The translations under genes and the position numbers were made by a program. From positions 186,001 to 250,000 of the forward strand of contig NZ_JAJGNI010000001.1 of the NCBI RefSeq assembly GCF_020781975.1: 64,000 bases of DNA, read 5' to 3'. A model generated the notes under the pieces. It worked only from the letters and a program-made list of their open reading frames with translations, had not been told where the DNA came from and made no database searches. Within the stretch, counting starts at the first letter, position 1, and each line of letters opens with the position of its first letter. The DNA is from Microbacterium schleiferi. GTDB taxonomy: Bacteria > Actinomycetota > Actinomycetes > Actinomycetales > Microbacteriaceae. Positions 16,912-35,684 of the stretch are shown in pieces.

Positions 16912-19900
16912 TCAGGAGCCGGAGAGGGCCTTCGTCAACCGCTGCAGCGACACCGGCTCGGCAGTTCCGAGGCTCTGCGCGAACAGGCTTACGCGGTACT
17001 CCTCGAGCAGCCAGCGTCCGTGCACGAGGTTCGGTGACGCGTCTGCGGCCAGGGGAATCGTGCCGCCGGAGTCCCGATAGATCGCCGCGGCACGCTCGTA
17101 CTCGGTCAGGCGCTGGCGATCACGACCGGGGTTGTCGGCGAGCGCGGCGGTGCGGGTGAGCAGGGCCGCGAGATACCGCGGATAGTGTGCGAGGCGCTCC
17201 AGTCCTACCGCCGAGACGAACCCGGGATAGACAAGTCCCGACAGCTGTCCGCGAACGTCGGTGAGCGCTGCCAGCAGCGTCATGGCGTTGAGGTTTCGCA
17301 GGCCCCGCTCGACGTCGCGCGCCGCGGTGAGGATGCGGGCAGTCAGCGAAACTGCCGAGAACAGCGCGTCAGTCACGTCGGCCGAGAACGCATCCCGCGC
17401 TGCCTCGAACTGGGCGCGGGTGCGGATCGGGTCGGGAAAGCGCGCGAGGACCGCGTCTGCCACGGCGACCCGGCAGTCCTCGACAAGGGAGCGCGCCGAC
17501 GAGTACGGGGATGCCGCGAGCGCGAGCTTCTCGGCGGCGGTCAGGTGGTCGAGCACGTACGCGGCGGGGGAGGGGACCGCCAGCAGCAGCAGGCGACGAA
17601 GACCCGCATGGGTGGCTCGCGCGGCAGCCTCGGGCGTCGCATCGATCCGCAGCGCGACGCTCTCTCCCTCGTCGATGAGGGCGGGATAACCGCGTACCAC
17701 GCCACCGGCGACCCGCGTGTCGACGACGGCGGGAAGCTCGGAGATCGTCCAGTCGGTGAGCCCCGAGACTTCCGTGAACCCCGCGGTGTCGGCATCCGGC
17801 TTCGCTCCTGAGGGCCGCGGGGTGCGCTGGGCGGGCGCCGGGGGTCGTTTCGGGGCGGAAAGCGAGGATGCCACCGCGCCGCGGGCGGCCCCGGCCAACT
17901 CCTGCTGCAGGCGGGTGAGGTCGCGCCCGGAGCCGAGCGTGCGTCCTCGGTGGTCGACAACCCGGAACGAAATGCCGAGGTGGGCGGGGACGCGCTCGAG
18001 GTCGAAATCGTCCGCCGTGACGGGTTGGTGGGCCACGCGCTGGATGCGTGCTGCGAGGGCTGCCCGAAGGGTGGTCGGCGGGAGTCCGCCGTGATCCTCC
18101 GGGCCTTCGCCGGCAAGATCTGCCGAGAACCGAGCCGCCCAGTCGGCAGCGGGCACGACGTGACGCCGGATGGTCTTGGGCAGTGCCCGGATGAGGGCGG
18201 CGATCAGCTCGTCGCGCAGTCCCGGTACCTGCCAGTCGAACCCGGTATCGCGCAGCCCCGCGAGCAGCGCCACCGGTACCACAGCATTGACGCCGTCGTC
18301 GGGTGCACCCGGCTCGAAGCGGTAGCTGAGCGAAAGCACCTGATCGCCCTGCGTCCACCGGGAGGGATACTCGTCGCTGCGCGCTGCCGCGGCGCCCTCG
18401 GCGAGATCGGACTCGCCCATGTCGAGCAGGCGCGGTGTGCGGTTCGAGGTCTCACGCCACCAGGACTCGAACGAGCGGACGTCGAAGACCTCGCGCGGGA
18501 TCCGCGCGTCGTAGAACGCGAACACCGCCTCGTCACCGGCCAGGATGTCGCGGCGACGCTCCCGCTCCTCGAGCTTCTCCAGGCGCCGCCGCATGTCCGC
18601 GTTACGCCGGTCGAAGGCAGTGAGGCGTTTGTCGAGGTTCGCGGCATCCCATTCGCCCTGCACGAGCGCGTGGCGGATGAAGAGCTCGCGTGCGAGCGGC
18701 CGATCGAAGCGGGCCAACTGCACGCGGCGCTTCGGGATGATCTCTACCCCGAACAGGGTCACCTTCTCGTACGCGGATGCCGCACCCGCCGATCGAGACC
18801 AGTGCGGCTCGCCCAGCTGACGGTGGGCGAGCTCGCCGGCGAGCTCCTCGGCCCAGGCTGGGTCGACCGCTGCGACCGTTCGGGCGAACAGGCGCGAGGT
18901 TTCGACGAGTTCTGCCGCCATGACGGCATCCGGGCTCTTCTTGCGAAGCCCCGAGCCCGGGAAGATCGCGAAGCGCGCGCCGCGGGCTCCCCGGTATTCG
19001 GCGGTGGGGCGCCGTGGCTTCCCGGAAGCTGCACCCTTGGCTGCGGACGTCGTCGTGCGGTCATCGCGGATGCCGATCTGCGAGAGCAGCCCCGACAAGA
19101 TCGCGCGATGGACGGCATCGGGGTCGGCGTCGACCCTCGTCTTCGCGCGCCGTGCACCCATGAGATCCGCGAGTTGTCGGTGCACATCGACCCATTCGCG
19201 CACGCGCACGTAGTTGAGGAACTCGGCCCGGCACATCCGCCGAAACGCGCTCGAGCCGAGCTCTACCTGCATCTCTTGCAGGTAGTTCCACAGACCCAGC
19301 AGCGAGAGGAAGTCGCTCGTCGGGTCGGTGAACCGCGCATGCAGGCGATCGGCCTGCTCGCGCTGCTCCTCGGGACGCTCGCGGACATCCTGAAGAGACA
19401 GGCCGGCCACGATCGCCAGGACACTCGGCAGCACATCCCGCTCGCGCGCTTCGACGAGCATCCGCGCCAACCGCGGATCGATCGGGAGCCGGGCAAGCTC
19501 CCGGCCGACCTTCGTGAGTCTGCCTCCCGAGACCGCGCGGAGTTCGACGAGGAGGTCCATCGCAGCCTTCACGCCGCGTGAATCCGGGGGAGTGAGGAAC
19601 GGGAAGGCTGCGACATCCCCCATTCCGAGGGCCATCATCTGCAGCAGCACGGCGGCCAGATTGGTGCGGAGGACCTCGGGTTCGGTGAACTCCGGACGGC
19701 CTGCGAAATCCTCCTCGGCGTAGAGCCGGATGGCGATACCCGGCGCCGTGCGCCCCGCACGGCCCGAACGCTGCTGCGCGGACGCCTGCGAGATCGCCTC
19801 GATCGGGAGTCGCTGGATCTTCGACCGGGCGGAGTAGCGCGAGATGCGCGCGGTCCCGGTGTCGATCACGTACCGGATGCCGGGAACGGTCAAGCTCGTT

Positions 19901-20790
19901 TCGGCCACGTTCGTGGCAAGGATGACGCGGCGGCGCACGCCGGCGCGGGTCGACGGTTCGAAGACCCGGTGCTGCTCGGCGGCACTGAGGCGACCGTACA
20001 GCGGGAGCACCTCGGTGGGAGCGGCATCGTTCGCGTACATGCCGCGGACGGCATCCATCGCGTCGCGGATCTCGGATTCGCCGGGAAGGAACACGAGAAC
20101 ATCGCCCCGCTCCTCGCGATCCAGTTCGCGCAGCGCTGCGACGAGCCCGTCGATGTCGTCCTCGGCGTTCTCGTCGTGGGGGCGGTAGCGAATCTCGACC
20201 GGGTAGGTGCGCCCCGAGACCTCCACAATCGGGGCGGCTGCTTCGGGATCTTCCGGCCTCGGTGAGAAGTGCCGCGCGAAGCTCTCGGGATCGATCGTCG
20301 CCGAGGTCACGATGACCTTCAGGTCGGGGCGCTTGCGCAGGATCTGGCGAAGGTACCCGAGCAGGAAGTCGATGTTCAGTGACCGCTCGTGAGCCTCGTC
20401 GATGATGATCGTGTCGTACCGGCGCAGCAGCCGGTCGCGGTGGATTTCGTTCAGCAGGATGCCGTCTGTCATCAGGGTGATGCGCGTGTCCTCGCTCACG
20501 GCATCCGTGAACCGTACGCGATAGCCCACCGCGCCGCCGAGGGGCACCTGCAGTTCGCTCGCGATTCGCTCGGCGATCGAACGCGCGGCGATCCGCCGAG
20601 GTTGCGTATGGGCGATACGACCGCGACCGAGCTCCAAGCAGATCTTCGGAAGCTGGGTCGTCTTGCCCGAGCCTGTCGCCCCCGCGACGATCACGACTTG
20701 ATGGTCTTCGATGGCGCGCGCGATCTCGTCCCGGGCGGCACTGACGGGCAGTTCCGGCGGGTAGACGATGACGGGTTCTGGCGCGGGCAT
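16912..20790 (-). CDS. hrpA: DEAH-box ATP-dependent RNA helicase HrpA
   Basis: The 1,292-residue protein has the full HrpA layout. Walker A is GATGSGKTTQ (37-46), the DEAH box is IIDEAHERS (129-137), then a SATID motif, a second RecA domain with QRSGRAGRTAPG, a HA2/OB-fold region, and the long C-terminal DUF3418 region found only in HrpA. The E. coli protein has been linked to resolving stalled or collided ribosomes. The gene starts 18 bases after the stop of the transglutaminase-like gene, and that gap contains TACGAT 8 bases before the ATG, so it probably has its own promoter. Confidence 0.95.
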   Translation of the reverse strand: MPAPEPVIVYPPELPVSAARDEIARAIEDHQVVIVAGATGSGKTTQLPKICLELGRGRIAHTQPRRIAARSIAERIASELQVPLGGAVGYRVRFTDAVSEDTRITLMTDGILLNEIHRDRLLRRYDTIIIDEAHERSLNIDFLLGYLRQILRKRPDLKVIVTSATIDPESFARHFSPRPEDPEAAAPIVEVSGRTYPVEIRYRPHDENAEDDIDGLVAALRELDREERGDVLVFLPGESEIRDAMDAVRGMYANDAAPTEVLPLYGRLSAAEQHRVFEPSTRAGVRRRVILATNVAETSLTVPGIRYVIDTGTARISRYSARSKIQRLPIEAISQASAQQRSGRAGRTAPGIAIRLYAEEDFAGRPEFTEPEVLRTNLAAVLLQMMALGMGDVAAFPFLTPPDSRGVKAAMDLLVELRAVSGGRLTKVGRELARLPIDPRLARMLVEARERDVLPSVLAIVAGLSLQDVRERPEEQREQADRLHARFTDPTSDFLSLLGLWNYLQEMQVELGSSAFRRMCRAEFLNYVRVREWVDVHRQLADLMGARRAKTRVDADPDAVHRAILSGLLSQIGIRDDRTTTSAAKGAASGKPRRPTAEYRGARGARFAIFPGSGLRKKSPDAVMAAELVETSRLFARTVAAVDPAWAEELAGELAHRQLGEPHWSRSAGAASAYEKVTLFGVEIIPKRRVQLARFDRPLARELFIRHALVQGEWDAANLDKRLTAFDRRNADMRRRLEKLEERERRRDILAGDEAVFAFYDARIPREVFDVRSFESWWRETSNRTPRLLDMGESDLAEGAAAARSDEYPSRWTQGDQVLSLSYRFEPGAPDDGVNAVVPVALLAGLRDTGFDWQVPGLRDELIAALIRALPKTIRRHVVPAADWAARFSADLAGEGPEDHGGLPPTTLRAALAARIQRVAHQPVTADDFDLERVPAHLGISFRVVDHRGRTLGSGRDLTRLQQELAGAARGAVASSLSAPKRPPAPAQRTPRPSGAKPDADTAGFTEVSGLTDWTISELPAVVDTRVAGGVVRGYPALIDEGESVALRIDATPEAAARATHAGLRRLLLLAVPSPAAYVLDHLTAAEKLALAASPYSSARSLVEDCRVAVADAVLARFPDPIRTRAQFEAARDAFSADVTDALFSAVSLTARILTAARDVERGLRNLNAMTLLAALTDVRGQLSGLVYPGFVSAVGLERLAHYPRYLAALLTRTAALADNPGRDRQRLTEYERAAAIYRDSGGTIPLAADASPNLVHGRWLLEEYRVSLFAQSLGTAEPVSLQRLTKALSGS

Positions 20791-20808: not shown

Positions 20809-23214
20809 CTACGGTCGTCGATCACGCCGGCCGCGGCGCAGTGATCGCAGCGAGAGCGTCGCCCGTACCCGATCGCGCCAGGACCCCGCTTCGCCCAGTC
20901 GCTCGCGCTCGCGGTCGACCAGCTGCCAGAACGCGGTGGCTTCCTCGTCTTGCGGCGACTCGTCGGCGAAACTGGCGTGGTCGGCGATCATCGCGAGTGC
21001 GCGAGCATCATCGGCCCCGCCGACGGCCTCGACGATCTCGGTGCGCGTGCGGGTGGCGGGCAGCGGGCCACCACTGTCGATCGTCGCGTCGACCCACTCA
21101 TCCCAGCCCCCGAGGATGCGCTCGGCAGGCAGAGCCGCCCGGCGGCGTCGACGGCGGCGCCATGCTTTGACGGCAACGATCACCGCGAGCGGCCCGAGCA
21201 GGATGGCCAGAACGAGCAGGATGCTGCCCGCGATCTGCACCCCCAGCACCAGGCTCGACAGGTCGGCCTCGCTCTCCGGATCGTCGGAGGTGCGAGGGTC
21301 AGCGTCCGCCGGGTCGGCTTCGGGCGGCTTGACGACCTCGGCGCGCTCGCTCTCGACGTCGGTGGCGTTCTCTGGGTCACGCCGTTCGTCGACGACGGCA
21401 TCCATCGGGATCTCATGCTGGGGAGTGACATCGACCGGAATCCAAGTGCCGGAGACGTCTTGGACCTCGAGCCATGCCGTGATGTTGCGCCCTCGGCACG
21501 TTCCGTCCTCGCACGGCGGGACACCTGTCGCCGAACCGTCTTCTGCCTGGAGGCGCGCGCCGACCACGATCCGGGAGGGGAAACCGAGCTGGTCGGCGAT
21601 CATCGCCGCCGCCACGGCGAACTGCTCGTCATCACCGGCAGCCGCCACAAGTTCGGCATCCGTCGCATCGGGAAGCTGGGTCTGGCGGTTCACGAGTGCG
21701 GTGAAGAGGGCGTCGATGCGGTCGGTGGAGTGTCCGGCGCGACTGGGCGCGAAGGTGTAGTCGCCGAGGTAGGCGACCCATCCGGTGCCGGGAGGCGGTG
21801 TCTCGAGGGCGTGGCTGAGATATCCGCGCTGTCGCAGCCGATCGACGAGGTCTGCCAGGCCCGCACCCGCACTCCCCGCCTCCTGCAGGCGGATCCATTG
21901 CGTGAGGCTCTCAGGGACGATGGTCTCATCCAGGGTCGGCGCCGAGCGAGGCGGTGTCGCCTCCGACAGCTCCATCGATGCGGGAGCCGCGGCGCGGAGC
22001 GTGTAGCTGGTTCCCGCACCGTAGACGGGGCTGATGTCGATGCCCGAGCCTGCCGCAGCGTCGTAGAAGAAGCCGTCGGCCAGCGCGGCGCGGTCGGGGC
22101 CGTCGAAGGCGATAGCGGCCACCGTTCCCACTGTCGGTACCCAGAGACCGGAATACTCGCCGATGACGACGTCTGCGCGCACTCCGTCGCCGCCGACGAG
22201 GCGTGCCGAGGGGAGTCGCGTGTAAGCCGTGGCGGGGTCGTTGATCCGGGCAGCTGGGTCGGTGACACGAGCCAGCTGCCCGTCGTAGAAGGCCAGGGTG
22301 GCAAGTCGCACCCGGTCGACGCCCGCTGTCGTGATCTCGAAGAGGACCTCGTCAGCGGTGTCGGCGGCGAACATCGCGCGATACGTCGACAGGGGGCTCG
22401 CCTCCTGGGCGAGACGGATGATCGGTTCGCTCGCCGAGCGGGGAACCGTGCGGGGGTGCAGTGCCGTGAGGACCGGGGTGATGCTGACAGCCGCGACAAC
22501 CGCGATGAGGAGCATGCTCGTGCCGATCGCAGCCCGGCCCATCGCCGCGCGGCGGGCCGGACGCTGACGGATGCCGCCCGCTTCGCGTAGGGCGAGGCGC
22601 CGCACCATCACCGCGCGCCACAGCATCCAGAGCAGCACTGTGCTGCACGAGGCGATGCCGATCAGCGCCTCACGGAGGCCGGGGATCGGGACTGCCGCGA
22701 GAATGCCGGCCGTCGCGGTCGTTGCGCCGAACACGATCGCGAACGTTGCCGGCGTCAGCGCGATCGGTGCCGCGAGCCCCCACCACCGGGACCTTCTCGC
22801 CCCGATGGCCAGCGCCGCACCCGGTGCCAGAAGCAGCACCAGGAAGGCGGGCGCCAGCGTCGCCTGGTACGTGCCCAGCGGCAGCTCGAGAGTGAGCAGG
22901 TTGTTCGGCCCCGTGACCGGCGCACTGAGCACTCCGATCAGAGCAGCGGGAATCTGGCTGGGGTCGGTGAGGACCGCGGGAACCGCCAAGGGCACGCCTG
23001 CCACGACGAAGACCGTTGCAAAGGCGATAGCCGTCCGCCACCACATCCACGAGCGCGCAAGCGCGATCGAGCCGATGCCGATCGAGAGTGCTATCGCTGC
23101 GGCTGCCATCACAAGGAACCAGGGGTCCTCGTAGATCGGCCACATGCCGATCGCGCCGACGGCGGCCGCGACGACCATGAAGGCTGCGGTCCCGACGACC
23201 ATTGCCGGTCTCAC
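20809..23214 (-). CDS. Transglutaminase-like multispanning membrane protein with lost catalytic residues
   Basis: The 801-residue protein has the architecture of TgpA-like proteins: about six hydrophobic helices in the first 250 residues, an extracytoplasmic region containing a transglutaminase-like domain (about 430-605), one more membrane helix (656-684), and a basic cytosolic tail. The domain is recognisable from GDDEQFAVAAAMIADQLGFPSRIVVGA and WIPVDVTPQ. However, the usual G-x-Cys-E-x-F-A motif has Asp529 in place of Cys, and the usual His-Ala-Trp has Thr579; only Asp595 of the triad remains. It is therefore probably not an enzyme. The GTG start overlaps the DUF58 stop by 4 bases. It ends the kinase/Ig/MoxR/DUF58 operon. 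Confidence 0.85.
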   Translation of the reverse strand: MRPAMVVGTAAFMVVAAAVGAIGMWPIYEDPWFLVMAAAAIALSIGIGSIALARSWMWWRTAIAFATVFVVAGVPLAVPAVLTDPSQIPAALIGVLSAPVTGPNNLLTLELPLGTYQATLAPAFLVLLLAPGAALAIGARRSRWWGLAAPIALTPATFAIVFGATTATAGILAAVPIPGLREALIGIASCSTVLLWMLWRAVMVRRLALREAGGIRQRPARRAAMGRAAIGTSMLLIAVVAAVSITPVLTALHPRTVPRSASEPIIRLAQEASPLSTYRAMFAADTADEVLFEITTAGVDRVRLATLAFYDGQLARVTDPAARINDPATAYTRLPSARLVGGDGVRADVVIGEYSGLWVPTVGTVAAIAFDGPDRAALADGFFYDAAAGSGIDISPVYGAGTSYTLRAAAPASMELSEATPPRSAPTLDETIVPESLTQWIRLQEAGSAGAGLADLVDRLRQRGYLSHALETPPPGTGWVAYLGDYTFAPSRAGHSTDRIDALFTALVNRQTQLPDATDAELVAAAGDDEQFAVAAAMIADQLGFPSRIVVGARLQAEDGSATGVPPCEDGTCRGRNITAWLEVQDVSGTWIPVDVTPQHEIPMDAVVDERRDPENATDVESERAEVVKPPEADPADADPRTSDDPESEADLSSLVLGVQIAGSILLVLAILLGPLAVIVAVKAWRRRRRRRAALPAERILGGWDEWVDATIDSGGPLPATRTRTEIVEAVGGADDARALAMIADHASFADESPQDEEATAFWQLVDRERERLGEAGSWRDRVRATLSLRSLRRGRRDRRP

Positions 23215-24560
23215 GACTGTGCTCCGCGCAGCAGGATCTGGCGCAAGTCATCCAGAACGCCGACGGAGATGACCGTCGCTTCGCCCAGTCGCCGCAGCCG
23301 TGGCTCGCCCTCGAGGTCGCAGACCACCGCCGCAACCCCGACATGGGACGGGAACGCCAGAGCGGACCGCTGCAGGCCGGCTGCCGTCATGGTCGAGCCG
23401 CACACCAGGAAGGCGAGCGAGACGTCGCTGTGCGCCTCGACGGCCAGCGCCGCGACCTCGGACAGCGGGTTGACTGCATCGTGGCTTATCACGCCGGCGA
23501 GGGCGTCCATCATGATGCGTTCGGTCATCGTCGGAAGCTCCCGGATCGCGCGCACTCGACTGCGGGCGAACTCGGGAAGTTCTTCGCCGACGACGACCTG
23601 AACATCCCGCCCGTCGCGCACGCCGCGGACCCCGAGCGAGGCTGCAACGCTGACGGCGAGTTCGAACTCCTCCTCGTCCCGGTAGCTGTCTCGATCCGTG
23701 TCGATGGCGATGACCATCCGAGACCGGCGGGTCTGCTCATACTGGCGCACCATCAGCGTGCCGGTCTTTGCCGTCGACTTCCAGTGGACATGGCGCTGCG
23801 CGTCGCCGGGAACGTACTCGCGAATCGCGTGGAAGGAGATGTCCGAATCGACCAGGACGGGGGATGGTCGACCGTCAAGGTCACGGATGAAGCCTGCAGA
23901 CGTTGGCGGAATGGCGGTGGTCCGCGGGTGGATGTAGAGCGTGCGCGACTGCGACCACGTCGCCTCCCTGCGCAGCAGACCCAGGGGGTCGCCGCGCACC
24001 GAGCTGATCGGTCCGATCGAGACGACGCCACGGCGCGGCGCGGGGATCACGACAGCCTCGACGTGGGAGGTGCCGGTACGCAAGAGGGGGACCGCGATGT
24101 CGATGATTCCCGTCCCGACCGGAATATCGATGGTTCCTGGCAGAACGACCGGTGACGTTTCGTTTCGTACCGTGATCTGCGCGTGGGCGCTGGAGCCTGC
24201 GACGACGCGGTCGTGAGCGAGAGTGAAATCGACGGTGTACGGCCGCGCGCGCAGGAGGAACGGGAGCGCGAGCAGCAGCAGCACCCCCGCGAGGGTGCCG
24301 GCAGCGATCAGTTCGGCGATCCCCAAGCTGACGCCGATACCGAGTCCCACAGTCGCGACGATCAGTGCGAGCCAGCCTCCCGGTCGCACGACGCCCCGGA
24401 GCCACCGCCACGCATTGACAACGTGCGCGGTGAGGCGGTGCCACACTCCGACTCCGCGCATGGCGATGACGGTGGTCCCGTGGGTCTGCGTCATCCGCGT
24501 TCGGCTGCTCGCCTGTGTCGCGGTCACCTCCCTGGTGAGCGGTGAGGGAGTGGGCGTCAT
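23211..24560 (-). CDS. DUF58 domain membrane protein
   Basis: The 449-residue protein has two adjacent membrane helices (about residues 60-105, WLALIVATVGLGIGVSLGI and TLAGVLLLLALPFLLRA) and then the DUF58 region. Its hallmark is FHAIREYVPGDAQRHVHWKS near residue 257, followed by a von Willebrand A-like fold beginning MVIAIDTDRDS. DUF58 proteins almost always pair with MoxR ATPases, which are thought to remodel or load them. The ATG overlaps the MoxR stop by 4 bases and the stop overlaps the transglutaminase-like start by 4 bases, so the products are probably made in fixed ratio. Confidence 0.88.
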   Translation of the reverse strand: MTPTPSPLTREVTATQASSRTRMTQTHGTTVIAMRGVGVWHRLTAHVVNAWRWLRGVVRPGGWLALIVATVGLGIGVSLGIAELIAAGTLAGVLLLLALPFLLRARPYTVDFTLAHDRVVAGSSAHAQITVRNETSPVVLPGTIDIPVGTGIIDIAVPLLRTGTSHVEAVVIPAPRRGVVSIGPISSVRGDPLGLLRREATWSQSRTLYIHPRTTAIPPTSAGFIRDLDGRPSPVLVDSDISFHAIREYVPGDAQRHVHWKSTAKTGTLMVRQYEQTRRSRMVIAIDTDRDSYRDEEEFELAVSVAASLGVRGVRDGRDVQVVVGEELPEFARSRVRAIRELPTMTERIMMDALAGVISHDAVNPLSEVAALAVEAHSDVSLAFLVCGSTMTAAGLQRSALAFPSHVGVAAVVCDLEGEPRLRRLGEATVISVGVLDDLRQILLRGAQS

Positions 24561-25522
24561 GGCGCCTCGCGCTGCGTCGGCGGAGCGACATCCAGCAGCA
24601 CCTGGCCGATCACCGCGCGGGCGGTGACGCCGTCGAACTCCGCCTCCGGGTCCAGCACGAGTCGGTGTGCGAGCACCGCCTCGGCGAGAGCCTTCACGTC
24701 GTCAGGTGTCACGAACCCGCGGCCGTGTGCGATTGCCCAGGTCTTCGCCGCACGTGTGAGGGCGATGGCGCCGCGGACGCTCACGCCCAGGCGCACCTCG
24801 ACAGCCGCGCGCGTGGCGTCGACGACCCGCGCGATGTAGTCGAGCACGACCGGGCTGACATAAACGTCGCGGGCCAGCGCCGACATCCCGCGGATGCCAT
24901 CCAGAGACACGACCGGGGAGAGTTCGACACGCTCGGTCGCGGTGCCCTCCAGGATGCGCAGCGTCGCGGCGTGGTCGGGGTACCCCAGGGTCGCCTTGAT
25001 GAGGAACCGGTCGAGCTGGGCCTCCGGGAGCCGGTAGGTTCCGGCCTGTTCGATGGGGTTCTGGGTCGCGACCACGAGGAAGGGCTGGCCGACCGGCCTG
25101 GTCACACCGTCGATCGTGACATGGCCCTCTTCCATCACCTCGAGCAGTGCAGACTGGGTCTTCGGGCTTGCCCGGTTGATCTCGTCGGCCAGCACGATGT
25201 TCGCGAAGACCGGCCCGCGGTGGAACTCGAACTCGCCGCGCTTCTGGTCGTAGACGGTGATGCCTGTCACGTCGCCCGGGAGCAGATCCGGGGTGAACTG
25301 GATGCGGGAGCTGACCCCGTCGACACTCTGCCCCATGGCTCGGGCCAGAGAGGTCTTTCCGGTGCCCGGATAGTCCTCGAGAAGCAAATGCCCTTGCGAG
25401 ATCATCGCCGTGAAGGCGAGCTCGATGACGTGGCGCTTGCCGAGAACCACACGCTCGACGTTCTCGACCAGGACGCGGAACGTGTCGTGGAACCTGGTCA
25501 CCTGGTCGGCTGTGACGGTCAT
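24557..25522 (-). CDS. MoxR family AAA+ ATPase
   Basis: The 321-residue protein is a MoxR-type AAA+ chaperone. Walker A is YPGTGKTSLA (51-60), Walker B is IVLADEINRASPKTQ, sensor 1 lies in VVATQNPIE, and the arginine-finger region follows LPEAQLDRFL. MoxR proteins act as metal-insertion or complex-assembly chaperones together with VWA or DUF58 partners. The ATG at 25522 follows GAGAGGA. It overlaps the Ig-domain gene upstream and the DUF58 gene downstream by 4 bases each. Confidence 0.93.
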   Translation of the reverse strand: MTVTADQVTRFHDTFRVLVENVERVVLGKRHVIELAFTAMISQGHLLLEDYPGTGKTSLARAMGQSVDGVSSRIQFTPDLLPGDVTGITVYDQKRGEFEFHRGPVFANIVLADEINRASPKTQSALLEVMEEGHVTIDGVTRPVGQPFLVVATQNPIEQAGTYRLPEAQLDRFLIKATLGYPDHAATLRILEGTATERVELSPVVSLDGIRGMSALARDVYVSPVVLDYIARVVDATRAAVEVRLGVSVRGAIALTRAAKTWAIAHGRGFVTPDDVKALAEAVLAHRLVLDPEAEFDGVTARAVIGQVLLDVAPPTQREAP

Positions 25523-28500
25523 GGAGTCCTCTCGGGGGTAGGGCACACCAGGCCCGTGTGGGTGTAAGCGTCCAGGCCACTCAGGCGACCAGAGAACGAG
25601 ACAGTGATCTCCCACGCCGTCTCGGTGCCGTCTGCCGACGGCGTTCCGCTGGTTGTGATGCTGTAGTCGGCTGGTGCGGCATCCACCATCGTCGCCGACG
25701 GCTGGCCGCCTGCGTCGCAGGTGGCGGGAAAGACGACCTGTGTCGTGTACGCGGCACCGGTCGGCGTGATCGTCGTCGCCTCGTCGGAGCACGCATCGCC
25801 GACGCACCACCAGGCTTGGATCGTTCCGGGGTCGGTGCCGGTGCGGAAGAGGCTCGCGAAGTCCGTCGTTCGGGGCGGGCCGTAGCGCGCCTCGTAGCGG
25901 GGATGATCGAGCGAGGGCCCACTCACTCGCGTCCAGGTGGCGGTCTGTCCCGACACCGTGGGCGCGGGGTCGACAGTGTAGGTCGTGGTTCCCGACGGGG
26001 CGGGGATCGGTTCGGTCGGTTGTGCGGTGACCGGCCCCGCCGTGGCACGGCCGAACGATGTCGATCCGATCCGGTACTCGGCGCACGCGCGGGCGGTGGT
26101 GTCCTCCCAGACGGTTCCGGGAATGACCTTCGCAACCTCACCGCTGGTCACGTTCCCGACGAACTCAAGGGAGCAGGTGGCTCCAGTGGTCACACCGACC
26201 CACAGTTCCGTACCGACCCCGTTCGAAGCGACCGTCGCCACTGCGCGGACCTCTCCACTGCCGTCATCGCTGGGGTTCAGGCGAAGCTGCAGGCGGGGTG
26301 CGCCGATCCCGTACGCGATGACGGATGCCGCCGTCCCCTCGGTGGTGCCCGGAGCGATCGGCGGATAGTCGAAACGGGAAAGCGGCGTCACGCTCAGTGT
26401 CGTCTGCTGGTTGGCTCCCACGGCGAACTCCGGGAAGACGACCTCGCCTCCACCCGACGGGACCGGGAGGGTCTCCGAGGCTCCCGTGATGGGGCTGGTA
26501 ACGCGCACCGACCCGGTCGTCGGATCGAACCCGCCCACTGTCACGGCAGCGACGTTGCCGCTGCCGTCGGCTGTCGGCACTGGCCGCGCCGACACCGACG
26601 TCGGCGCACTCGGTGCCCGATAGGGCCAGGCCGTCACGGCGCTGGTGGCGGCCCGGGACTCTCCGACGCTGTTGACGGCCCAGGCTTGGTAGCGGACCTT
26701 CGCCCCCGGTTCGGCGGTGATCGGCGGGCACAAGCCGTCGGCGCCGCAGGTGATCTCCTGACCGCCGCCGCTGACGCGGAAGGACTCCACGGCAGGGTAC
26801 GAGCCACCGGCGCCGGTGACGCGGAGGGTCACTGTCGTCGCGTCAAACGAGGTCCATTCGATTGTCGTGGGATCGGCGGGAAGGCCTCGCAGATCCAGCA
26901 CCACCGTTCCCGTGCGCTCGCCGCTCGAGAGCCGACCCTGGGCATCTGCAACCTCGAACGTGCCAGTGCAGTCCGACGCCCCAGGTGCGTCGGCCGCCCA
27001 GGTCGCCCGGACCGAGGATGCCGAAGCGACAGCGAACGTGACGTCCGAGCAGTTCGCGGGAGACGCGACCGACGCGAGCCGCAACGGTGTTCCAGGAAGC
27101 GGGTTCACTTCGCCGGCGGCCCCGATCACGGGAATCTCGCACGAGGTGGCGCCGCCGGCCTGCGAGCACTGCTGTGTCACGGTGCCGGCCTTGGGGAGCG
27201 TCGACGGCGCGGGTCCGACAACGAGCGTAAGGGCAGCCGGCTCGGCATCCGGATGGCTCGTCAAGCGCACGACCACGGCCTCGGTGCGTCCGGGACCCGC
27301 GTCGTCAGCTCCGGTGACCTCCAGCCGTGACCCGGTGAGCGAGACCTGGAACTGATCGCCCGGCGCCTCGACGGCGTATTCCAGGGAACCCCAGGCCGGG
27401 GTGCCGGTCCACGTCGTCATCTGTCGCAGATCGTAGGTCTCCGTCTGCCCGGGGCTGAGCGTGCGTGACGCGGCCGAGAGGATCGGCTGAGGCGCCTCGG
27501 CCTCGATCAGGAATCGGACGGTGAGGACCGTCCAATCGTCGCCGCCGACCAGACGCGCCTGGATGGAGCACGTATCGGTCCACGGCGCTCCGGGTCCCGC
27601 TGTATAGCGCAGCGTTCTCGCTCCCACCAGCTCGCACGTGGCACCGCCTCGCGCCCCGCCGGTTGTGGTGACGGGTGAGATCTCAAGGTCGGTGCCGCGA
27701 GGGATGGCGATGATCTCGGCCAGGTCGACCTCCACAGCCTCGTTCTCCCCCACGGTGAAAGAACCCGTGTCTGAGCGCAGGGTCGGGCGCAGTTCCGACT
27801 CGCCGGGCACCCGGAGGAATCCGTAGGACGTGACGGTGGATCCGTCGGTCGCGGTACCGGTGACGCTGAAGGGAATCACCATCGGCTCTGACTGCGCCGT
27901 TCCGGCAAGGCGGCGGCCGGACACTGTCAGGTTCGGACTCCCTCGCCACAGCGCCAGCTCTACCGAGTCAGGGTCACCGCCTGCCCACGTGACCTTGCCC
28001 GAGAGGACGTCGATGCCCTCCTCGAAACCGTCGATGGTCTCGGCGGTCAGCACCGTGTCGCGAACCTCCGGATAATCAGGGACGGGATTTCGCACGATCT
28101 TGAGGACGATGAGGCCCATCGCGGTATCACCGGCGGGGTTGCTCGCCGTGTAGATGAACGAGAACGTTCCGAGAGCCTCACCTGAGCGCACGGTGATTGA
28201 CCCGTTCTCGAGATCGACCTTTGTCAGGAGCGCTTCCAGATCGTCGTACTCGGTGGTTTCGGGCTGGGCGTTCGGTCGAACATCCACGAGACTCAGCTCG
28301 GCACCGGAGGGGTCCACGTCGTTTTCCAGTGGAGTGATCGTGGTCTCGCGCCCCGGGGACTGACCACCCTCGAGTTGGACGTAGTCCGAGAAGGTGACCG
28401 GCCGCGGGTCGGATTGAGCTTTGCGCACTCCGACGAGGGCGAGTGCTGTGGCAGTTGCTCCGCGCCCGTCCCGGACTCGATAGGTGAAGGATGCCTGCCC

Positions 28501-31401
28501 GCTCCATGACGGCGGGGCGGTGTAGATGAGGTTCGTCCCGTCAGCCGAGATGCTGGCGGTGCCGGCAGGGGAGCCGTCGGCGCTGACTGGCTGATCCACG
28601 ACAGCGTCGAGCGTGACGCTGTCGCCGTCCGGATCGATCCCGAACGAGTCGAAGCCGATGGTCGTCGATCTGCCGCTGAGCGCTCGTCCCTCAAGCGTCA
28701 CCGGCGACGGGGCAGTGTTGGTCTCATCGCCGAGCACGGTTATGGTGACCCGTGCGCTGTCGGTGAGCTCGGGGTACCCCACCCGGTAGGCGGTGTACGT
28801 CACGCTGTAGACACCGGGGCTCTCCGGCGCCAGATAGCGCAGGGTCCGGCTGGTGGCGAACGCGAGCCCGGCGTCGGTCTCATTGACGACCCGCGACGGA
28901 TCGATCGCCAGCAACCCTCCCGTGGGAGCCGAGTCGTTGGCGAGGACCGGGATGTCGATCTGTCCGCCGACGCGCACTCTGGCAGCGTCCGCTACCGCGA
29001 TCGGGGGGTCGGCAGCGGCCGCGGGCAGCAGAATCACGGTGAGCTGCCCCGTGATGGCGGCTGCCGGGTTGTCGGTACCGTCAGAAATCGTGTAGCGGAC
29101 GACACCGATCTCGCCCGGCGTGCCGTCGGCGGTCGTGCCGCTGGCGCGGATCGTGGACTGGGCTACGGGGTCGACGCTCAGCGACGCGCCCTCGGTGGCC
29201 TCGGGGCGGACGTCGCTGAGCAGCAGCACGAGACCTGCAGGATTGGAGACTGCGCTGAGGACATCGACGGTGGTGTCTTCGTTGGGTCGGACGAACGCGA
29301 CAAGGGGCGGTGCCGACAACACAGCCTCGTCCCGATCCACCGCGGTAACCCGCACGGTCGCCGTCTGCTCGGTGTCGCCGTCGCGGACCGTGTACTGCAA
29401 TACCGTCGAGCCAGGCGACTGTGCGGTGTAGGAGAACGAGAGGGCGCCGGCGTTGACGGCGATGCCGGAATCGTCGTCGGCGGAGGTCACCGCCGACAGC
29501 GTCGGTGACCCGGTTCCGCCGCGCACGCGGTCGTTCAGCTCCACCGTGACCGCCCGGCCGACCACCGCCGTTACCGCGAAGGAATCGGCCTCCAGCCGTG
29601 GGGTGGGAGCGACGCTGATCGTGAGGGCTCGGCTGGTCTCGGCGCCTCTGCTGTCGGCGACCGTGACGGTGACGGAGGCGGTGGTCGCGACCTCAGCGTT
29701 AGCGTCAGGGTGCTGGTAGGTCAGGACACCGGCCGGATCGACGGTGACCGTGCCCGGCCCCGCGTCGACAGTGGCCGATGACACGTACAGCGCATCACCG
29801 TCGGGATCCACGAAAGCATCGAGAATCGGGAACCGGACGGTACCACCGGGAGCCGTCACCGGTTCCGGCCAGTTCGCCAGGCACCGTTCGGTCCCGCACC
29901 ACAGCGGGGCAGTGTTCTCGTCTGCGGGAACCACCGTGAGAGTCACGGTGGCAAGGTCGGAGGTCAGTCCCTCCACCGCAGTGCCATCGGTCACGCGGTA
30001 CTCGAAGGTCGCGGTGCCCGATGCATCGGCCGGCACGTCGATGGTGAGAATCTGGTCGGCATCGGTCGTCACCGGTGTTCCGAACGCTGACGCTGAAACT
30101 GACTCGGGAACGACGCTCAACACGTCCTCGTTCGGATCATGGTCGTTCAGGAGGACGGGCAGGGCTATGGCCCGGCCGGCTCGGACACCGAAGGCATCGT
30201 TCTCGGCGACGGGAGGCTTCGGCTCGACGACCTCGGGAGCAACGGCATCGTCCGACTCCGCAGCGCTCACCCGGTCATCGATCTGCCATGACTGCGATGA
30301 GGGCACGAGATCGCCGGCGGGTACGGTCCACACCCACCCCGACTGCGTCTCGTTCAGAATGAGCCGCCGGTCGGTGCCCAAGAATTCGGGAAGCGGGTCG
30401 GCTCCGAGTTCTGCGCCGGCGTAGTCGAGGGCGGAATCGCCGGTTGACTGCGACCACAGCGTGCCGCCGGTCGGTCCGAGCCAGGCGGCGAAGACCTCAC
30501 CACCGAGCGTGCGGGGCGCGGCTGGCACGCCGCGCATCTCGAGTCCGCCGGTGACCTGCCGCTGCGCACCGTCGCCGAGGGCCACCGCGACGAGCCCCTG
30601 CGAATCGGCGAGGAAGACCTCGTCGCCGCCGTCACTGGATGCTGCAAGTCGCGCATCGGGCAGCATCGCCGTCTCCACCGGGGCTGGCAGGCCCTGGATC
30701 CAGAGCCGGCCGGTCTCGGCATCCAGCATCACCCACCGCTGCCCGACGAGGGTCAGTGAAGCGCCCTCGCCCGGGGCGTCGGGAACCTCATCAACGCCGA
30801 GGATGCTGCCGCTCGCGAGATCCGCGCGCACCATTTCGCCGGAATCCGCCGAGAACGCGGCGACGGTGCCGAGGGGACCGACGGCGACTGCGTCTGCGGC
30901 GAACGGATCCTCCTCGTCTCCGATGTCCAGGCGCGCAGCTCCCGGGCGTGACAGGTCGCCGATGAAGATGTCGCCGGCCTCGGTGAGGTAGGCCACCGAG
31001 GTGCCGCTGGTCGACACGGATCGCGTACCGGCGGGAGTCGCGACGAAGGCGTCGGCGCCGCCGGCGTCCAGATCCGGGGGAGTGGCGGGGTCGATGCCGG
31101 CGACGCGGGTGGCGGATGCCGCGAATGCCCACACCGCGTCAGTCGTCTGCGCGAGCGTCGTCGGCTGGCTGATCTGTTTGACAGTGTCGAGTTCGAGGAG
31201 TTCGGCATTGACGCGTGCGTAGTGTCCGCCCGCCGAGCGCTGCAGGGCCCAGATCGTGCCGTCGTCGAGGGGTGCCTGCTGCGCGTCGTAGCCGGGCCAG
31301 ACTGCCGCGAAACCCACTACGAGGACTGCAGCCAGTCCGGCCGCTGCACCCCACATCCAGCGCGAGGGTGAGCCCCGCCGGGTCGCTGCCGCGCGGGCCA
31401 C
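25519..31401 (-). CDS. Giant membrane-anchored Ig-like / fibronectin III repeat protein
   Basis: This 1,960-residue protein has a short basic cytosolic N-terminus, one membrane helix (about 17-37) and an extracytoplasmic remainder. Residues about 45-390 form repeated short strands with W/G-rich turns, possibly a beta-propeller-like domain (inference). From about 395 onwards there is a chain of cadherin-like/Ig (Big) domains, each opening with a strand such as AENDAFGVRAG and continuing LPVLLNDHDPNED; similar openings recur near PPIAVADAARVRVG and RPVTFSDYVQLEGG. Near 1,560-1,720 are fibronectin III-like modules with paired Cys. The last 400 residues contain further Cys pairs. No sortase motif is seen. 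GTG start, 1 base after the kinase stop and without a clear ribosome site, so translation is probably coupled. Confidence 0.85.
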   Translation of the reverse strand: MARAAATRRGSPSRWMWGAAAGLAAVLVVGFAAVWPGYDAQQAPLDDGTIWALQRSAGGHYARVNAELLELDTVKQISQPTTLAQTTDAVWAFAASATRVAGIDPATPPDLDAGGADAFVATPAGTRSVSTSGTSVAYLTEAGDIFIGDLSRPGAARLDIGDEEDPFAADAVAVGPLGTVAAFSADSGEMVRADLASGSILGVDEVPDAPGEGASLTLVGQRWVMLDAETGRLWIQGLPAPVETAMLPDARLAASSDGGDEVFLADSQGLVAVALGDGAQRQVTGGLEMRGVPAAPRTLGGEVFAAWLGPTGGTLWSQSTGDSALDYAGAELGADPLPEFLGTDRRLILNETQSGWVWTVPAGDLVPSSQSWQIDDRVSAAESDDAVAPEVVEPKPPVAENDAFGVRAGRAIALPVLLNDHDPNEDVLSVVPESVSASAFGTPVTTDADQILTIDVPADASGTATFEYRVTDGTAVEGLTSDLATVTLTVVPADENTAPLWCGTERCLANWPEPVTAPGGTVRFPILDAFVDPDGDALYVSSATVDAGPGTVTVDPAGVLTYQHPDANAEVATTASVTVTVADSRGAETSRALTISVAPTPRLEADSFAVTAVVGRAVTVELNDRVRGGTGSPTLSAVTSADDDSGIAVNAGALSFSYTAQSPGSTVLQYTVRDGDTEQTATVRVTAVDRDEAVLSAPPLVAFVRPNEDTTVDVLSAVSNPAGLVLLLSDVRPEATEGASLSVDPVAQSTIRASGTTADGTPGEIGVVRYTISDGTDNPAAAITGQLTVILLPAAAADPPIAVADAARVRVGGQIDIPVLANDSAPTGGLLAIDPSRVVNETDAGLAFATSRTLRYLAPESPGVYSVTYTAYRVGYPELTDSARVTITVLGDETNTAPSPVTLEGRALSGRSTTIGFDSFGIDPDGDSVTLDAVVDQPVSADGSPAGTASISADGTNLIYTAPPSWSGQASFTYRVRDGRGATATALALVGVRKAQSDPRPVTFSDYVQLEGGQSPGRETTITPLENDVDPSGAELSLVDVRPNAQPETTEYDDLEALLTKVDLENGSITVRSGEALGTFSFIYTASNPAGDTAMGLIVLKIVRNPVPDYPEVRDTVLTAETIDGFEEGIDVLSGKVTWAGGDPDSVELALWRGSPNLTVSGRRLAGTAQSEPMVIPFSVTGTATDGSTVTSYGFLRVPGESELRPTLRSDTGSFTVGENEAVEVDLAEIIAIPRGTDLEISPVTTTGGARGGATCELVGARTLRYTAGPGAPWTDTCSIQARLVGGDDWTVLTVRFLIEAEAPQPILSAASRTLSPGQTETYDLRQMTTWTGTPAWGSLEYAVEAPGDQFQVSLTGSRLEVTGADDAGPGRTEAVVVRLTSHPDAEPAALTLVVGPAPSTLPKAGTVTQQCSQAGGATSCEIPVIGAAGEVNPLPGTPLRLASVASPANCSDVTFAVASASSVRATWAADAPGASDCTGTFEVADAQGRLSSGERTGTVVLDLRGLPADPTTIEWTSFDATTVTLRVTGAGGSYPAVESFRVSGGGQEITCGADGLCPPITAEPGAKVRYQAWAVNSVGESRAATSAVTAWPYRAPSAPTSVSARPVPTADGSGNVAAVTVGGFDPTTGSVRVTSPITGASETLPVPSGGGEVVFPEFAVGANQQTTLSVTPLSRFDYPPIAPGTTEGTAASVIAYGIGAPRLQLRLNPSDDGSGEVRAVATVASNGVGTELWVGVTTGATCSLEFVGNVTSGEVAKVIPGTVWEDTTARACAEYRIGSTSFGRATAGPVTAQPTEPIPAPSGTTTYTVDPAPTVSGQTATWTRVSGPSLDHPRYEARYGPPRTTDFASLFRTGTDPGTIQAWWCVGDACSDEATTITPTGAAYTTQVVFPATCDAGGQPSATMVDAAPADYSITTSGTPSADGTETAWEITVSFSGRLSGLDAYTHTGLVCPTPERTP

Positions 31402-31402
31402 G

Positions 31403-32512
31403 TCAGATCACGCTCACAATCACGGCAGCGGCAACTCCCGCGACGATGATCGCGCCGCCCACGACCAGCGACCAGATCAGCCCTGTCCGGCGAGGCGCGG
31501 GGGCCTCGGGGAGGTCGTCGCTCGGCAGACGGTTGGCGGTGCGCTGATCGCGGGGACGTCTCCGGCGCGGAGAGTCGTGCGGCACTCGCGGGCGCACGAA
31601 CACGGGAGCTGCGTCCTGCTCGCGTTCGGGGAGGGCAACGGCGCCGGCCAACTCCAGCGGAGTGACGGGCATTCCGGTGTCGTACTGCACCAACTGCAGG
31701 GCGTGGGCGAATTCCGCGGCTGACGAGAAGCGGTCGGCGGGGTTCTTCGCGAGGGCGCGACGAAGCACGTCCTCGAGGCTCGGTGGCACGTCAGAGCGGT
31801 CGATCGGTGTGTAGCCGGCGCGGCGGATGCGGGACTTCAGGTGGTCTCGCGTGTTGTCGCTGTGCGACGGCAACTCGAACGGGCTGCGGCCGGCGAGGAG
31901 GGAGTAGACGGTGGCACCCAGGCTCCACACTTCGGCGGGCACCGAGCCGCTCGTGCGCTCATCGATGATCTCCGGCGCGCTCCAGGGAACGCTCATCGCG
32001 AAGACTTCGATGCCTTCCCGGGCTGACACCGAAGCGGCGATCCCGAAGTCCGACAGCACAGGCATCCCGTAGGCGGTCAGCAGGATGTTGGACGGCTTGA
32101 TGTCGCGGTGCAGGAGCCCCGCCCGATGCGCGGATTCGAGAGCCGACGCGACCTTCACCCCCGTTCGCAGCACTTCGTCGACGGGGATCGTCTCTCGCCG
32201 ATATCGCGACGCGAAGGAGGCCGGGCAGTACTCCATGACGATGTACGGGCGCCCATCCGGTGAAACACTGGCCTGGTAGATCGTGAGGATCGAGGGGTGT
32301 GCCGACAGGTGCGCCATCGCGTCGGCCTCTGCCGCGAACATGCGCAGCAACGACTCATCGACGATGTCTTCGAGGAGAACCTTGACCGCCACCGCGCGCC
32401 GGGGCATGTCCTGTTCGTAGAGGAAGACGTCGGCGAATCCTCCGGCCCCCAGCGGCCGCACGTAGCTGAAACCGGCAAGCGTGGGCGCTGCTGCCGGAAG
32501 CCGGCTAGGCAT
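31403..32512 (-). CDS. PknB-type Ser/Thr protein kinase with C-terminal membrane anchor and no sensor domain
   Basis: The 369-residue kinase has a glycine loop LGAGGFADVF (21-30), catalytic K44 in AVAVKVL, the loop HRDIKPSNIL with D137, and DFG (155-157), so it should be active. After the kinase domain comes a basic/Pro-rich linker, then a membrane helix that runs to the very C-terminus (about 345-368, ending AAVIVSVI). There is no extracellular PASTA or other sensor. The neighbouring giant extracytoplasmic protein is a natural candidate to supply one. ATG 32512 with GAGGG 4 bases upstream is chosen over GTG 32548, which lacks a ribosome site. Confidence 0.88.
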   Translation of the reverse strand: MPSRLPAAAPTLAGFSYVRPLGAGGFADVFLYEQDMPRRAVAVKVLLEDIVDESLLRMFAAEADAMAHLSAHPSILTIYQASVSPDGRPYIVMEYCPASFASRYRRETIPVDEVLRTGVKVASALESAHRAGLLHRDIKPSNILLTAYGMPVLSDFGIAASVSAREGIEVFAMSVPWSAPEIIDERTSGSVPAEVWSLGATVYSLLAGRSPFELPSHSDNTRDHLKSRIRRAGYTPIDRSDVPPSLEDVLRRALAKNPADRFSSAAEFAHALQLVQYDTGMPVTPLELAGAVALPEREQDAAPVFVRPRVPHDSPRRRRPRDQRTANRLPSDDLPEAPAPRRTGLIWSLVVGGAIIVAGVAAAVIVSVI

Positions 32513-32636
32513 CAGACCCTCGGATGCCGGTGCGCTTCGCGCGGGCACAGCGAGTCGCTCGACCAGCGCGCCGTGCCCCCCGATTCATGCGATAAGCCTA
32601 AATCGAGCCGCTGAGCCGGTGCTGTAGGCATCCCCG

Positions 32637-33491: not shown

Positions 33492-35063
33492 TCAGATCCA
33501 GGTGGGCGACCAATTGTGGAGTCGCCAGAAGTCGTAGGGCACGCTCGTCGCGGTGAGGATCGGATACCAGAACGCCGAAAGCACCAGAGCGACGATGAAG
33601 AAGACGGCGACCACCCGCTGGCCCGTTACGCGTCTTTCGGGACTGGCCCCGGCCGGATGGGCGAGATCACGCAGCGCAATCCCCAGTGCCAAGAGGAGGA
33701 ACGGCAGCATCACCACCGTGTAGAACTGGAACACCGTGCGCTCGGGGTATAGCAGCCACGGCACCCAGGTGACGGCGACGCCGGTCAGGACGAAGCCGGA
33801 GGCGAGGTCCCGGCGTCGGATGAACCTGATGACGAGGTAGACGGTAGCCGCGACGGCGGCGTACCACACGAGCGGATTCGGCATCGAGTAGATGTTCTGT
33901 ACGCATCCTGAAGCCGCTGTGCAGCCAGCCTCGCCGAGGGCATCGCTGTGATAGAACATCGAGGTCGGTCTGGCAAGGAGCGGCCACTGCCATGCAGGGC
34001 TCGCATAGCTGTGGCTTGCTGACAGGCCGACGTGGAAGCCGTACATCGACTGGTGGTAGGCCCACAGGTTCTGCAGAGACAGCGGTACCCACGACCAGAA
34101 GCCGGTAGCCGGCGAGCCGTCGACGGTGTGCCTGTCGTATCCGCCGTCGGTGGCCAGCCATCCCGTCCACGTCGCGAGATAGAGAAGGAGTGCCGGCGGC
34201 ACGAGCAGCACGAACGTCACCGGTCCCTGGCGCACCGCGGCATCGGCGGGCCAGTACTCCACGCCGCGCCGACGCCGCTCCAGGGCGTCGACGATGACGA
34301 GGTAGATCCCGATACCGGCGAGCACGTACAGGCCCGACCACTTCACGGCGGTTGCGGCGCCCGCAGCAAGGCCGGCAGCGACAACCCACGGCCTCGCCCA
34401 GAACACCGGACCCCAGCGAGACTCTGAGCTCCAGCGCCCCGTTGCCAGTCGGCGCGGCCACTCTCGCTCGCGAAGCCATCGCCGATCCAGCAGGACGAAC
34501 CAGAACGCCAGCAGCGTGAAGAACATGACGAAGGTGTCGAGCAGCGCGACGCGGCTCAGCACGATTGCCAGGCCGTCGATCGCCATCAGTCCGGCCGCTG
34601 CGGTGGCCACACCGATCGACCGGGTGAGCGTGAGCGCGACGACATAGAGCAGCAGCACGGCGAGAGTTCCGAACAGCGCCGTGGCAAAACGCCACCCGAC
34701 CGACGAGTCAGCGCCGAACAGTGCCATCCCGGCGCCGATGAGGAACTTGCCCAGTGGCGGGTGGACGACGTAGCTGCCCTCGCCCAGGAAGATGTCGGTC
34801 TCGCCTGCCGCGAACCGCGCGTCAGCCTCATCAGGCCACTTCGCGGCGAATCCGAGGTTCCACTGCGACCAGGCATCCTTCACGTAATAGGTCTCGTCGA
34901 AGACCAGTTCATGCGGGTGCCCGAGGTTCCAGAAGCGCAGGACGCCGGCAACGGCAGTCACGACTGCCGGCACCACGACCTGAAGCCGGGGGGAGATAGC
35001 GATCCGGGCGCTGACACGGTCGTACACCGTCGGACGCGCGGGGCCTTCGACGATGGTTGTCAC
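33492..35063 (-). CDS. pmt: Protein O-mannosyltransferase (dolichyl/polyprenyl-phosphate-mannose dependent)
   Basis: The 523-residue polytopic enzyme transfers mannose from polyprenyl phosphate to Ser/Thr of secreted proteins. The family's acidic pair is in LVFDETYYVKDAW (about 55), and YVVHPPLGKFLIG lies in the first large external loop. About ten hydrophobic helices follow. In Mycobacterium tuberculosis the orthologue is Rv1002c and lies beside the rsmI gene; here 6.8 kb separates them. The GTG follows TAGGCT by 6 bases, and that TAG is also the stop codon of the gene upstream. Confidence 0.92.
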   Translation of the reverse strand: MTTIVEGPARPTVYDRVSARIAISPRLQVVVPAVVTAVAGVLRFWNLGHPHELVFDETYYVKDAWSQWNLGFAAKWPDEADARFAAGETDIFLGEGSYVVHPPLGKFLIGAGMALFGADSSVGWRFATALFGTLAVLLLYVVALTLTRSIGVATAAAGLMAIDGLAIVLSRVALLDTFVMFFTLLAFWFVLLDRRWLREREWPRRLATGRWSSESRWGPVFWARPWVVAAGLAAGAATAVKWSGLYVLAGIGIYLVIVDALERRRRGVEYWPADAAVRQGPVTFVLLVPPALLLYLATWTGWLATDGGYDRHTVDGSPATGFWSWVPLSLQNLWAYHQSMYGFHVGLSASHSYASPAWQWPLLARPTSMFYHSDALGEAGCTAASGCVQNIYSMPNPLVWYAAVAATVYLVIRFIRRRDLASGFVLTGVAVTWVPWLLYPERTVFQFYTVVMLPFLLLALGIALRDLAHPAGASPERRVTGQRVVAVFFIVALVLSAFWYPILTATSVPYDFWRLHNWSPTWI

Positions 35064-35646: not shown

Positions 35647-35684
35647 TTGCCGGGAGGGCATGTGCGCACATGCCCTCCCGGCAA
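35647..35684. repeat. Perfect 38-base palindrome
   Basis: The left arm starts TTGCCGGGAGGGCATGTG and the right arm is its exact reverse complement, meeting at a central CG, so all 38 bases form one uninterrupted palindrome. It lies between divergent genes and therefore terminates neither. The centre reads ATGTGCGCACAT, which shares ATGTG/CACAT with the LacI operators nearby. It could be a protein binding site or a hairpin that insulates the two transcripts. Confidence 0.85.

Follow-up and report, generated by a model that had tools for sequence, protein, structure and literature searches.

A PFNA-like gene set outside the bifidobacteria, in Microbacterium schleiferi, with a transglutaminase-like protein devoid of the catalytic cysteine

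The 64,000-nucleotide window analyzed here (Microbacterium schleiferi, contig NZ_JAJGNI010000001.1, positions 186,001 to 250,000) carries five genes arranged head-to-tail on the minus strand at 20809–32512, encoding a Ser/Thr kinase, a giant immunoglobulin (Ig)-like surface protein, a MoxR AAA+ ATPase, a DUF58 protein and a transglutaminase-like membrane protein (Tgm). By family and gene order, the set is a PFNA-like variant outside the bifidobacteria. We tentatively favor a reading in which the products form one envelope-spanning assembly, where a cysteine-less Tgm would adapt the outer giant to a kinase-controlled MoxR/DUF58 motor on the inner side of the membrane. The kinase and giant genes are separated by a 1-base gap, and the giant–MoxR, MoxR–DUF58 and DUF58–Tgm junctions are 4-base overlaps. 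An earlier reading of the letters alone (the sequence-only reading) had described this same-strand array and these families; the coordinates and spacing held on rechecking, and all five products have Pfam matches.

The linkage of the five genes is conserved among relatives. A search with Tgm gave a match in 128 of 150 Microbacteriaceae genomes. At least 150 places matched, the window included, and stretches of ~20 kb were retrieved for 80 of the 150 listed: all 29 that scored best next to the window, plus 51 hand-picked lower down, a choice that skipped some places, for example near contig ends (G099, G113). All five families lie on one strand in 80/80 retrieved loci, so the claim that these genes belong together stands; they were not found mostly apart. 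The gene order of the window is kept in 73 loci, and in seven the kinase is placed after Tgm. When the window and locus L098 are counted as well, the 4-base overlap is retained between MoxR and DUF58 in 62/82, DUF58 and Tgm in 72/82, kinase and giant in 21/82, and giant and MoxR in 17/82. The set also occurs in Demequina and Cellulomonas. In Actinomyces oris, the giant, MoxR, DUF58 and Tgm genes stand in a row, with a kinase gene and two FHA genes close by on the opposite strand. Two such operons are present in each of the genomes G111, G037, G122, G118, G025 and G142. Absence of the set tracks small genome size: of the 20 negatives listed (22 in all), 14 measure ≤1.8 Mb, versus 7 of the 128 positives (Fisher p = 2.3e-10, uncorrected for kinship between genomes, with sizes tallied by hand).

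For the comparisons that follow, groups A (clade A), C and D were delimited by eye on a FastTree tree that shows no support values. Group B is the remainder and takes in L079, L084 and L096, which branch apart from the rest. L105, on a short contig, and L107 and L108, with broken frames on draft Demequina contigs, were excluded from the tree and from the Tgm residue counts. Three other identities for the set were considered and rejected. Only 1 of 72,556 plasmid records matches, a 415-kb A. oris plasmid from a human oral cavity sample; none of the 31 pattern matches from a profile scan of viral contigs was confirmed; and the anti-phage defense models of PADLOC match the kinase but none of the other four proteins at E ≤ 1e-5.

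The outer domain of Tgm has the TgpA fold (sequence profile E = 2.9e-8 to 6g49), and the predicted topology comprises about seven N-terminal membrane segments, this outer domain, one further membrane helix and an inner helical tail. The AlphaFold2 input alignments contained 71 and 46 sequences, hand-chosen from the matches. The catalytic cysteine is missing from all 89 aligned copies, as expected of the degenerate transglutaminase recognized in the sequence-only reading, and the catalytic histidine is retained in seven copies, which all belong to group C. In group B the former cysteine position varies freely (A, Q, E, G). Arg499, Asp528, Glu530 and Arg548 are present in 89/89 copies, and the positions of His468, His495, Asp528 and Glu530 are invariant or nearly so across the four groups. 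All five other transglutaminase-fold proteins of the M. schleiferi genome keep the cysteine. The conserved absence of this cysteine together with a replacement motif is a new aspect of the family, and Tgm is probably a non-catalytic membrane partner of MoxR/DUF58.

The placement of Tgm between the outer and inner components was examined by co-divergence, measured as partial rank correlation between operon parts in 89 operons with 200 subsamples of 60%. The Tgm outer domain tracks the giant (mean 0.26) but shows no tie to the inner proteins (−0.01). For the Tgm tail the pattern is the opposite, with 0.18 for the inner proteins versus −0.04 for the giant. Within clade A, the outer domain gives 0.24 with the giant and −0.04 with the inner proteins, and the tail 0.15 with the inner proteins and −0.03 with the giant. 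The expected direction was obtained in a fraction of 1.00 of the subsamples, both for the 89 operons and for clade A. An unrelated exported neighbor, available as a control in 12 genomes only, gives −0.02 with the Tgm outer domain. These values lend weak support to Tgm as a bridge between the giant and the inner proteins.

Because of this co-divergence, and because MoxR of Bifidobacterium longum is reported to be phosphorylated by the kinase Pkb2 (accessible text of PMC8430577), we favor a MoxR/DUF58 motor that is set by the kinase and that Tgm connects to the giant. Gene content, linkage, the absent cysteine, the conserved new residues and the missing outer part of the kinase are read directly from the sequences; the folds and topology of the giant and Tgm are predicted. 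From these we infer the contacts between the products, the motor action and phosphorylation in M. schleiferi. The remodeled Tgm cleft would bind the giant without processing it, and the inner Tgm tail would dock onto DUF58, which would hand it to the MoxR hexamer. ATP hydrolysis by MoxR would then drive loading, positioning or release of the giant. In clade A the kinase lacks an outer sensor; it would set motor activity by phosphorylating MoxR or DUF58, with a membrane FHA protein as reader and a PP2C phosphatase as eraser, both encoded elsewhere in the genome. In a more far-reaching form, which we regard as rather unlikely, an ancestral transglutaminase would have been converted, across actinobacteria, into a transmembrane transmission: the dead cleft, with its new conserved His/Asp/Glu/Arg set, would grip the propeller–Ig giant, and the inner tail would let a phosphorylation-controlled MoxR/DUF58 motor pull on, load or release it across the membrane.

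Several points weigh against the favored assembly. In group B (30 operons), the Tgm outer domain gives 0.10 with the giant versus 0.13 with the inner proteins, the tail gives 0.11 with the giant versus 0.04 with the inner proteins, and the expected direction appears in only 0.33 (outer domain) and 0.23 (tail) of the subsamples. The exported-protein control is small (12 taxa), and compartment-wide rate effects could explain the co-divergence pattern. Action of a cytoplasmic motor on an outside protein lacks a mechanical explanation, and a missing cysteine is no proof of missing enzymatic activity. The replacement residues are also not strictly invariant, since Asp528 is Asn in 2/71 close homologues and A. 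oris Tgm has no equivalent of His468. These same substitutions count against a quite improbable alternative in which Tgm is another kind of enzyme and His468, His495, Asp528 and Glu530 form a new catalytic or metal site. Near-invariance of the four positions while the old cysteine position drifts in group B is what such a site would predict, provided that the four residues meet in the fold.

From an anchor at its N terminus, the giant is predicted to run through a membrane-proximal beta-propeller and a conserved stalk of Ig domains to a variable tip. The N-in orientation is suggested by Arg residues ahead of the signal-anchor helix, and the propeller, missed in the sequence-only reading, is predicted to occupy the first ~340 extracytoplasmic residues. 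Three sequences (P0133, P0153, P0156) were left out of the comparison of stalk and tip conservation. Pfam places Big_9 in five stretches and Cadherin_5 in three, and Cadherin_4 is also matched. The Ig-like part of the earlier description stands, in the form of Big_9 and cadherin-like domains. As to its fibronectin type III (FnIII) part, Pfam detects no such domain in the window's giant at E ≤ 0.01, although fn3 is detected in two relatives, L058 and A. oris. A machine that assembles or remodels a surface fiber or wall contact, as first suggested, may be envisaged; for the giant, a lone chain anchored at its N terminus is no less likely than a fiber.

The window's kinase has HRD and DFG motifs and ends at its transmembrane helix, with no outer domain. 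Among the retrieved loci, an HRD-type motif is found in 80/80 kinases and DFG in 79/80. Clade-A kinases extend a median of 5 residues past the helix (33 loci, with no helix found in one); the median outer part is 92 residues long in group B (minimum 5), 108 in C and 111 in D. Co-divergence of the group-B outer part shows no clear partner preference among 29 taxa. The clade-A stretches contain an FHA match in 31/33 and a PP2C match in 27/33 (phmmer >35 bits). A mainly sensory role for the system would fit several of these features: the giant's tip would detect a ligand or contact, and the signal would be relayed via Tgm to the kinase, with MoxR and DUF58 acting as phosphorylation-controlled relays and not as a motor. 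Without an outer domain on the clade-A kinase, sensing would fall to a partner; a variable tip on a conserved stalk suits a receptor, and FHA and PP2C genes are usually at hand. We nevertheless find this role doubtful. Groups B, C and D mostly keep the kinase outer part, so the giant need not sense there, and MoxR proteins are described as chaperones in the accessible text of PMC8430577.

Because most clade-A loci have FHA and PP2C genes nearby, their absence from the window's operon is probably derived. The earlier remark that both are missing is true of the operon and does not extend to the genome, where such genes lie elsewhere. The rpoC–rpsL interval of the window's genome (L129) contains a DUF5684+FHA gene of the type linked to the operons, but the five genes themselves are absent from it, and the same interval in the genomes of L098, L099 and L100 likewise has an FHA gene without any of the five. 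In the clade-A stretches, rpoC lies upstream in 11/33 and rpsL downstream in 3/33; longer downstream DNA adds rpsL for G111 and G129. The interval between Tgm and the hrpA-type helicase gene holds a PP2C gene and a 36-bit FHA match in L099, and neither in L098. On the simplest reading of these arrangements, the block moved next to hrpA, FHA was left behind and PP2C was lost later. At C28 of the M. schleiferi genome, a PP2C gene lies 92 bp from an FtsK/SpoIIIE gene. A former group-B copy of the operon was likely lost there, because this pair flanks many group-B operons. Two further arrangements were observed among relatives. Past the FHA match behind the operon, L047 (15559–16815, plus strand) and L048 have a second, weakly matching kinase-like gene, and the gene after Tgm in A. 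oris (L165, 14602–17970, plus strand) combines an RDD domain with FHA, in a plan similar to that of the clade-A DUF5684–FHA proteins.

Neighboring genes also raise the idea that the set serves some other envelope machine as an accessory, such as type IV pili in clade A or an FtsK/SpoIIIE-type membrane ATPase in group B. A type IV pilus cluster (pilB, pilT, pilC, pilin, pilD, pilM–O) lies downstream of the operon in 7/13 clade-A genomes for which extra downstream DNA was obtained (L132, L133, L135, L136, L137, L141, L143), and an FtsK/SpoIIIE-family ATPase is encoded in 22/30 group-B loci and beside a PP2C gene in the M. schleiferi genome (L058, 1694–4477 on the minus strand; L164, 10703–13504 on the plus strand). 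The pilus genes, however, share an interval that may merely collect insertions, and M. schleiferi keeps the five genes although its genome lacks a PilB-like ATPase (the top T2SSE match scores 151 bits, versus 401 for the G111 PilB). The pilus version was rejected on this ground, and an accessory role of either kind is very unlikely.

MoxR–DUF58 pairs are widespread, and few of their substrates are known. In the operon the MoxR gene directly precedes the DUF58 gene, as in other such pairs, and two further pairs occur in the same genome (L131 at C29 and L130 at C28), one with an intact TgpA-type gene; they could serve as internal controls. The window's MoxR scores 37 bits against the bpMoxR domain PF20030 (cut-off 27) and far higher, 205 bits, against AAA_3. 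In DUF58, the position that we take to be the metal site of the vWA-like fold holds Asp in 22/91 sequences and is not conserved. Motifs of the types GDxxRx[IV]HW and EFE[LM]AV are retained in most DUF58 proteins of the set.

Table 1. Features of the operon and its surroundings in the window
Feature	Position	Strand	Basis
Ser/Thr kinase, 369 aa, ATG start at 32512	31403..32512	−	Pfam Pkinase 1.5e-42
Kinase transmembrane tail, residues 351–369	31406..31462	−	Hydropathy scan
Giant Ig-like surface protein, 1,960 aa, GTG start	25519..31401	−	Pfam Big_9 5.2e-51
Giant signal-anchor helix, residues 16–34	31300..31356	−	Hydropathy scan
Giant predicted beta-propeller, probably eight-bladed, residues ~45–374	30280..31269	−	Prediction
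MoxR AAA+ ATPase, 321 aa	24557..25522	−	Pfam AAA_3 3.9e-61, AAA_lid_2 1.9e-23
DUF58 membrane protein, 449 aa	23211..24560	−	Pfam DUF58 8.5e-11
Tgm, TgpA-fold transglutaminase-like membrane protein, 801 aa, without catalytic Cys and His	20809..23214	−	Pfam Transglut_core 3.0e-7
Tgm GDDEQF, residues 527–532, in place of the catalytic GxC motif	21619..21636	−	
Tgm TAW, residues 579–581, in place of the catalytic HAW motif	21472..21480	−	
hrpA-type helicase	16912..20790	−	Pfam DUF3418 2.6e-185
Protein O-mannosyltransferase gene, beyond the divergent gene upstream of the operon	33492..35063	−	

The hrpA gene, absent from the unit first described, starts 18 bp downstream of Tgm on the same strand, so an end of the putative transcription unit at 20809 is not obvious and transcription possibly reads through into hrpA. 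An in-frame GTG at 32548 precedes the ATG assigned as the kinase start. A promoter and terminator scan, uninformative as a whole, found no promoter-like site and a single terminator-like site versus 3.1 expected by shuffling. Upstream lies a divergent aldo/keto reductase gene, followed by the O-mannosyltransferase gene. The giant could be a substrate of this enzyme; the proximity of the gene to the operon may, however, be accidental. Repeats around the operon are matches with two or three copies and give no clear sign of a mobile element. A perfect 19-bp inverted repeat without spacer is located at 35647–35684. In the protein collection, the nearest Tgm belongs to Microbacterium sp. NPDC076895 (98% identity), and the closest named genome contig is from Microbacterium sp. 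67-17 (89%).

The sequence-only reading regarded this grouping as having no assigned function. It has a published counterpart with proposed functions in the bifidobacterial PFNA operon, described in the accessible text as pkb2-fn3-aaa-atp-duf58-tgm, optionally with prpC, a hypothetical gene and fha, and co-transcribed in B. longum GT15 (PMC8430577; PMC6803598). Two papers, one of which terms the operon unique to bifidobacteria (PMC8430577), confine it to that group and interpret it as a host-immunity operon. No recognizable report of a PFNA-type set in Microbacteriaceae was found in open-licence PMC papers. Binding of host cytokines or epithelium by the giant, as proposed for bifidobacteria, has been advanced on the basis of TNF-alpha binding by B. 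longum fragments (accessible text of PMC8430577, PMC10688814). The oral origin of the A. oris plasmid that carries the set is in keeping with such a role. The breadth of the set, from the Microbacteriaceae genomes with a Tgm match to Demequina and Cellulomonas, argues against it, as these bacteria are not mainly known as animal symbionts. We give host communication very little credence as the general function; at most it would be a local use of an older system.

Because Microbacteriaceae share the gene order known from bifidobacteria, the set probably has a greater age and a broader occurrence than has been assumed. With the same order in Demequina and Cellulomonas, and almost the same in Actinomyces, its function at the envelope is likely to be old and general. 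If the transmission version were true, the host-immunity operon of bifidobacteria would be a late adaptation of an envelope machine that is ancient and widespread. The MoxR/DUF58 pair also gains a defined candidate client, the giant, and a probably non-catalytic membrane partner, Tgm.

The resemblance to PFNA, known here from order and family and not from comparison with bifidobacterial sequences, extends to the same five families in the same order and strand, a kinase with a membrane helix, and MoxR; PFNA has optional PP2C and FHA genes after tgm (accessible text of PMC8430577). The M. schleiferi set differs in belonging to another actinobacterial family, in being followed by hrpA, in having no detected FnIII in its giant, and in having PP2C and FHA unlinked from the operon. 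PFNA kinases have a variable outer C-terminal region, and we class the window's set as a PFNA-like variant, not a plain member, because its kinase ends at the membrane helix. Tgm shares the fold of Pseudomonas aeruginosa TgpA, which has a conserved triad and measured activity (accessible text of PMC3507681), but lacks the Cys and His. Likewise, the MoxR–DUF58–TgpA operon at C29 of the same genome has a transglutaminase-fold gene after MoxR and DUF58, but that copy keeps Cys and His. The mycobacterial moxR1 operon, whose resemblance to PFNA has been noted, also has MoxR beside DUF58; it is described beside rip genes of the NlpC/P60 family, and the accessible text names no giant, kinase or Tgm (PMC12067865). 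As to MoxR–vWA–beta-propeller ternary systems, the window's MoxR passes the bpMoxR cut-off but scores far below its AAA_3 match, and the propeller of the window's set is predicted to lie outside the membrane. Relative to these systems, the new elements are the wide range of the set, the loss of the Tgm cysteine, the predicted propeller, and a relocated variant without a kinase sensor and without linked FHA and PP2C genes.

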